Positions 62,784-62,966 of a stretch of 64,000 nt of DNA are shown in pieces. A program made the translations under genes and the position numbers. Position 1 is the stretch's first letter, and each line of letters starts with the position of its first letter. The DNA comes from an uncultured Pseudomonadota bacterium (GTDB taxonomy: Bacteria > Pseudomonadota > Gammaproteobacteria > Burkholderiales > Methylophilaceae), in assembly GCA_903876765.1 (NCBI GenBank), contig CAIRBH010000022.1, positions 26,630-90,629 of the forward strand, read 5' to 3'. Below the pieces are notes generated by a model. It saw nothing but the letters and a program-made list of their open reading frames with translations, ran no database searches and was not told the origin of the DNA.

Positions 62784-62966
62784 ATGATTATTGAACTATT
62801 AACACCATTAATGCTAGCAACTGCACCGATGCGCATTGACGTTGCAACACCTGAGTATGACCACCAGTTGCAAAAAAATACAACTGTAGCTTGGCAGACA
62901 ATAACTGCAAATGGCACGCAAACATTTACCTATGACGGCAAGCCATTTGATGCAGATAACGACTAG
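62784..62966 (+). CDS. Putative graspetide (ATP-grasp-modified RiPP) precursor, 60 aa
   Basis: AAGGAG 6 nt upstream of ATG 62784. MIIELLTPLMLATAPMRIDVATPEYDHQLQKNTTVAWQTITANGTQTFTYDGKPFDADND; Thr/Asp-rich C-terminus; 22 nt upstream of an ATP-grasp gene on the same strand. Confidence 0.75.
   Translation: MIIELLTPLMLATAPMRIDVATPEYDHQLQKNTTVAWQTITANGTQTFTYDGKPFDADND

Follow-up and report, generated by a model that had tools for sequence, protein, structure and literature searches.

A candidate two-gene graspetide cassette with a putative stem-loop core in Methylophilaceae

The precursor and ligase genes

In the window (the whole stretch of 64,000 nucleotides that was analysed), a putative graspetide precursor gene encoding 60 amino acids plus a stop was identified at 62784..62966 on the forward strand, with ATG at 62784 and TAG at 62966. 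A gene encoding 294 amino acids plus a stop (62989..63873, forward strand), by similarity an ATP-grasp graspetide synthetase, begins 22 nt past the precursor stop, and the contig ends 127 bases beyond it. The precursor sequence, read directly, is MIIELLTPLMLATAPMRIDVATPEYDHQLQKNTTVAWQTITANGTQTFTYDGKPFDADND. One full homologous pair was found in the searched collections, also in Methylophilaceae (L002, CAILFU010000168.1, the same place as contig C168 of genome G150), where an intact precursor homologue, MIIELLTPLMLATAPMRIDVAAPMYDHQLQKNTTVAWQQVTMNGTQTYDYTGRPNDADND, lies at L002 3797-3979 and shows 83% amino acid identity to that of the window. The layout of a precursor with an ATP-grasp gene proposed in the earlier note was found in both genomes, with the precursor directly upstream of the ligase and 22 nt apart. 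A ribosome-binding site, AAGGAG, was read from the sequence at 62772..62777 on the forward strand, 6 nt before the precursor ATG, and TAAGGAGCTT is identical in L002. The mechanical ORF list started the precursor 16 codons earlier, at 62736; this longer form was rejected and the start was placed at 62784 because of the AAGGAG site and because protein homology with L002 begins there.

The precursor ORF is real and its frame is under purifying selection, as the earlier note had anticipated: omega between the window and L002 was 0.21 for the whole ORF (Fisher N vs S p = 1e-4), and no stop or frameshift was found in the precursor or the ligase of either species. Among 575 small ORFs in the window (25-120 aa), one, the precursor itself, showed T.T.T with three D/E after it close to the C-terminus, against 0.005 ORFs expected after residue shuffling, the pattern being picked post hoc. 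Shuffles of the precursor itself satisfied it in 0.3%. Since the pattern was chosen after the peptide was seen, conservation is stronger evidence than this chance figure. The precursor had no match among Pfam, NCBIfam and PHROGs models, and nothing was found in a search of the PDB and viral contigs.

The ligase produced four NCBIfam matches, all to graspetide-type maturases and every one far below its curated cut-off: TIGR04187 (1.8e-13), TIGR04185 (5.6e-13), TIGR04192 (8.9e-11) and TIGR04184 (7.1e-8). The match with TIGR04187 (SAV_5884 family maturases) covered residues 142-291 only and scored 50.4 bits against a 350-bit cut-off, so the threshold was not reached; there was no significant match in Pfam. 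The ligase also aligned with the solved microviridin ligases PDB 5ig8, 7m4s and 5ig9 over the DWR, IDF and FLEYNANGQW stretches. A profile alignment against six further ATP-grasps of graspetide type extended over residues 2-293 (E = 3e-15). Because of the NCBIfam and microviridin-ligase matches and the full-length profile alignment, the ligase can be assigned by sequence similarity to the graspetide synthetases, as a divergent but full-length representative. The ligases of the window and L002 are 94% identical, with an omega of 0.07. An AlphaFold2 model had a pLDDT of 34 and was discarded. Overall, of the features that define the graspetide class, an ATP-grasp of the MvdC/MvdD/SAV_5884 kind is present by similarity, below all curated cut-offs, and a small precursor with a leader and a Thr/Ser/Lys- and Asp/Glu-rich C-terminal core adjoins the ligase.

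Distribution and genomic context

Two of the 52 genus genomes carried the full precursor-ligase pair, and a third ligase occurs as a fragment in L003 (Methylophilaceae bacterium), with 67% identity over 49 residues. No further match was found in 187 family genomes or 399 phylum genomes at the thresholds used, nor in plasmids, and 399 genomes of the order gave only one weak match, to a different locus. The cassette looks lineage-restricted. Gammaproteobacterial TIGR04187-like loci (L010-L031) were rejected as sources of related precursors, none showing this leader or core, with minus-strand loci not all re-oriented. The ATP-grasp of a Leptospira phage was likewise rejected as a relative, being only 24% identical and having a different precursor. 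That phage, vB_LalZ_80412-LE1 (L009 2679-3960, KF114876.1), itself carries a graspetide-like pair: an ATP-grasp that has an MvdD pre-ATP-grasp domain is preceded by an ORF of 106 aa containing two TxTxTx(R)E..DD stretches. Another graspetide-like locus, different from the present one, was observed in the order Burkholderiales (L006 239-1875, G460:C13), with three tandem small ORFs ending in ETTDDN, ETTDDN and ETTDDE before an ATP-grasp.

Comparison of L008 and L002 with the window by blastn delimited a two-gene unit common to two species at 62752..63875 (forward strand) with 89% DNA identity, outside which both flanks differ between the window and G150. In G150, orthologues of the chromosomal neighbours of the window are on contig C98, and the cassette is on C168, where ORFs for small secreted proteins, an AbiEi/AbiEii pair and a gene resembling a DNA methyltransferase lie around it. 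The ligase dS was 0.42, and five nearby chromosomal genes compared between the same two genomes gave 0.65-0.94 (p = 5e-5), a difference that exchange of the cassette after separation of the species would produce. Unrelated insertion places in the two species, together with a dS below that of the sampled chromosomal genes, suggest that the cassette probably moves horizontally between Methylophilaceae genomes. The GC content was 36.5% for the cassette and 44.1% for the window. No convincing integron attC site and no repeats were found at the cassette edges.

The site after rmlD (window 62280-62760) is a variable insertion site with other accessory genes in genomes G135, G125 and G124. An XRE-type regulator (62356-62580, minus strand) precedes the cassette in the window only; this divergent gene was left out of the system, as it is not near the G150 cassette and an rmlD-plus-HTH query matched relatives only to rmlD. 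A rare secreted-protein family occurs in 2 of 52 genus genomes and lies close to the ligase at two of the three loci (L008 7019-7537 and L003 185-625, 31% identical to each other). It was rejected as an accessory gene, since it is also present alone, without a ligase, in G151, and no link was shown. No protease, transporter or methyltransferase adjoins the pair in L002, so any processing would fall to host functions. The genome of the window and G150 each have one Peptidase C39 gene, located elsewhere, and their PCMT genes are elsewhere too.

Leader and core of the precursor

The leader region was assigned to residues 1-43 (62784..62912, forward strand) and the core region to residues 44-60, GTQTFTYDGKPFDADND (62913..62963, forward strand), where T45, T47, T49, D51, K53, D56, D58 and D60 read exactly as the earlier note had given them. 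Residues 1-21 are identical in the window and L002, the leaders are 95% identical over residues 1-37, and 8 of the 10 replacements fall in residues 38-60. Omega was 0.10 for residues 1-37 and 0.21 for residues 38-60. The proposed division into an N-terminal leader and a C-terminal core agrees with this comparison, the leader extending beyond the TPEYDHQLQKN segment to which it had been attributed. A nearly invariant leader, a faster evolving core and a frame under purifying selection support the reading of the ORF as a RiPP precursor. In the leader, P8-L9-M10-L11-A12 fits Phhx(1,2)h, a loose motif for which a chance match is possible; it is present in about half of graspetide precursors (PMC8939145).

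Column conservation rests on the two full precursors known, in which T41, T45, T47, Y50, G52, P54, D56, D58 and D60 are invariant. The putative ester donors T45 (62916-62918) and T47 (62922-62924) and the putative acceptors D56 (62949-62951), D58 (62955-62957) and D60 (62961-62963), all on the forward strand, are conserved. The possible donor T41 (62904..62906, forward strand) lies outside the core limits drawn earlier, is conserved as well and is an equally good candidate. A G-[KR]-P turn separates T41, T45 and T47 on its N-terminal side from D56, D58 and D60 on its C-terminal side, an arrangement that would form a putative stem-loop core.

The exact T-x-T-x-T-x-D-x-K pattern was not conserved. 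K53 (62940-62942, forward strand) is Arg in L002, and T49 (62928-62930, forward strand) and D51 (62934-62936, forward strand) are Asp and Thr, respectively. The expected conservation of the Thr and Asp positions, assessed with the one full homologue, was therefore seen for T45, T47, D56, D58 and D60 and not for T49 and D51. Both cores have three core Thr and four Asp, with one Thr and one Asp exchanging places. The DNA at the exchange reads TTTACC TATGAC vs TATGAC TACACT, which would have come about by several substitutions or by a slip of two codons; the data do not tell the two apart. In residues 38-60, synonymous change seems higher than in the ligase (p = 0.02; p = 0.10 with the count restricted to strictly synonymous codons), which is a hint of core exchange and no more.

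Proposed ring pattern and alternative readings

The pair is probably a two-gene graspetide cassette in which a leader-guided ligase would form Thr-Asp esters in a hairpin core and which would be mobile within Methylophilaceae. After translation of the precursor, its N-terminal region (about residues 1-43) would bind the ATP-grasp ligase. The ligase would phosphorylate side chains of core Asp, and Thr hydroxyls would attack these to give omega-esters across the hairpin. Donors before the turn would be T45 and T47 together with T41 or a mobile T49/T51, and the acceptors after it D56, D58 and D60. The expected product would carry two or three esters between Thr and Asp and would lack a Lys lactam. 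Leader removal and export, which the cassette does not encode, would depend on host functions, and the precursor-ligase pair would transfer as one unit among Methylophilaceae genomes. The genes, their conservation and the homology of the enzyme are observed; we infer catalysis on the precursor, the number of rings and their nested connectivity. The product would be a small constrained peptide acting inside or outside the cell, for which protease inhibition is possible by analogy. Microviridins and plesiocin are protease inhibitors.

In a hairpin around G52-[KR]53-P54, the alternate residues 45, 47, 49 and 51 would lie opposite residues 56, 58 and 60. One nested solution would be T45-D60, T47-D58 and T49-D56 in the window or T51-D56 in L002, and another, using invariant residues only, would join T41, T45 and T47 with D60, D58 and D56. 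The resulting loops of 6 (T49-D56), 4 (T51-D56) or 8 (T47-D56) residues are plausible because ThfB, the fuscimiditide ligase, fully modifies substrates with loops of 4 to 12 residues (PMC12291112). The T49/D51 exchange means that at least one ring register differs or that those residues are unused. Lys53 was rejected as a conserved lactam donor, such a lactam being unlikely because of its replacement by Arg in L002; this replacement and the equal Thr and Asp numbers in both cores fit an ester-only core.

By its sequence features, the cassette would join the known graspetide class and not a new class, its core having been set against microviridin, plesiocin and group 13 motifs and model databases only. 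Published graspetide lists comprise 24 and later 43 groups (PMC13097080), and 174 families are given in PMC8939145. The difference from microviridin and plesiocin claimed in the earlier note held: the TxRxPSD core and PFFARFL leader of microviridin (group 1) and the repeated TTxxxxEE core of plesiocin (group 2) are absent from both precursors, whose core has no Glu. With the microviridin ligases MdnB/MdnC (PDB 5ig8, 5ig9) the C-terminal ATP-grasp half aligns and DWR, IDF and FLExNxxGxW are kept, whereas the cassette has a single ligase, no conserved Lys and no acetyltransferase or transporter. Closer in architecture is OEP6-1, with three nested cross-links (PMC12291112), which shares with the prediction made here a stem-loop, up to three nested esters and one ATP-grasp enzyme; the likeness is one of architecture, with no sequence relation shown. 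Fuscimiditide (esters T7-D18 and T3-D22) and amycolimiditide (four nested links) (PMC12291112, PMC13001092) likewise have Thr donors before the loop, Asp acceptors after it and a leader-dependent ATP-grasp (PMC12291112, PMC13001092, PMC13003496), the donors being four residues apart in fuscimiditide and two here. Rosaritide (group 21), with acceptors D22, D24 and D26 and a synthetase assigned to TIGR04187, provides proven precedent for DxDxD acceptors with such a synthetase (PMC13097080). It shares with the cassette three acceptor Asp at i, i+2 and i+4 near the C-terminus and TIGR04187 as best ligase model, although the present ligase reaches only 50 bits of the 350-bit cut-off of that family, and the PpiC-type partner protein and peptidase-transporter of rosaritide are not found beside the cassette.

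The rosaritide pairs S8-D22, S9-D26 and T11-D24 are not simply nested (PMC13097080), and a cage, as in microviridin, or a partly crossed, staggered connectivity with donors T41, T45 and T47 in both species is a tenable if less probable arrangement within the same class. It would use the strictly conserved 3+3 set of T41, T45, T47 and D56, D58, D60, whereas the alternation of T45, T47 and T49 or T51 against D56, D58 and D60 around a Gly-x-Pro turn suits nested hairpin rungs. A graspimiditide, in which D51-G52 in the loop would be methylated after ester formation to give an aspartimide, is very improbable. The stem-loop core with Asp-Gly in its loop resembles characterised graspimiditides (PMC13001092), but L002 carries T51-G52 at this place, so the loop Asp-Gly is not conserved, and the RPFG leader sequence of graspimiditides (PMC13003496) is absent from both precursor leaders. 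No PIMT-type methyltransferase gene was found in or beside the cassette, within 4-5 kb in L002/L008, sequence past the end of the window being absent from the assembly; the PCMT-family genes of G000 and G150 are on other contigs, and group 13 is 99% Actinomycetota (PMC13001092), unlike the present genomes.

An ordinary small protein as the product of the small ORF, with the ATP-grasp acting on another substrate, for example by C-terminal amino acid addition like RimK, is unlikely. The acidic DADND end would be suitable for a tailing ligase, but the family matches of the ligase are to graspetide maturases and not RimK, RiPP precursors typically combine an unchanging leader with a hypervariable C-terminus in which Thr/Asp are kept, as here, and the pair remains together while its flanks change. 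The rarity of the full pair, its place near a contig end and the lack of a transporter or regulator conserved alongside it would also fit a decaying or transient acquisition without a working product. This is quite unlikely given the low omega of both genes and their intact frames in both species. Finally, the cassette might represent a distinct graspetide lineage in which one ligase type takes a third Thr donor at T49 or T51, trading places with Asp; this is less likely than not, and if true, near-identical mobile cassettes would make peptides of different ring size.

No earlier report of a graspetide system in Methylophilaceae was found in the literature searched, and the cassette adds a minimal two-gene system of this kind for the family. 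The pair of orthologous cassettes amounts to a natural experiment, with ligases and leaders 94% and 95% identical, yet with core Thr and Asp exchanged. The comparison bears on the tolerance of graspetide synthetases for a displaced donor, which has so far been addressed mostly by engineered substrates such as those of ThfB.
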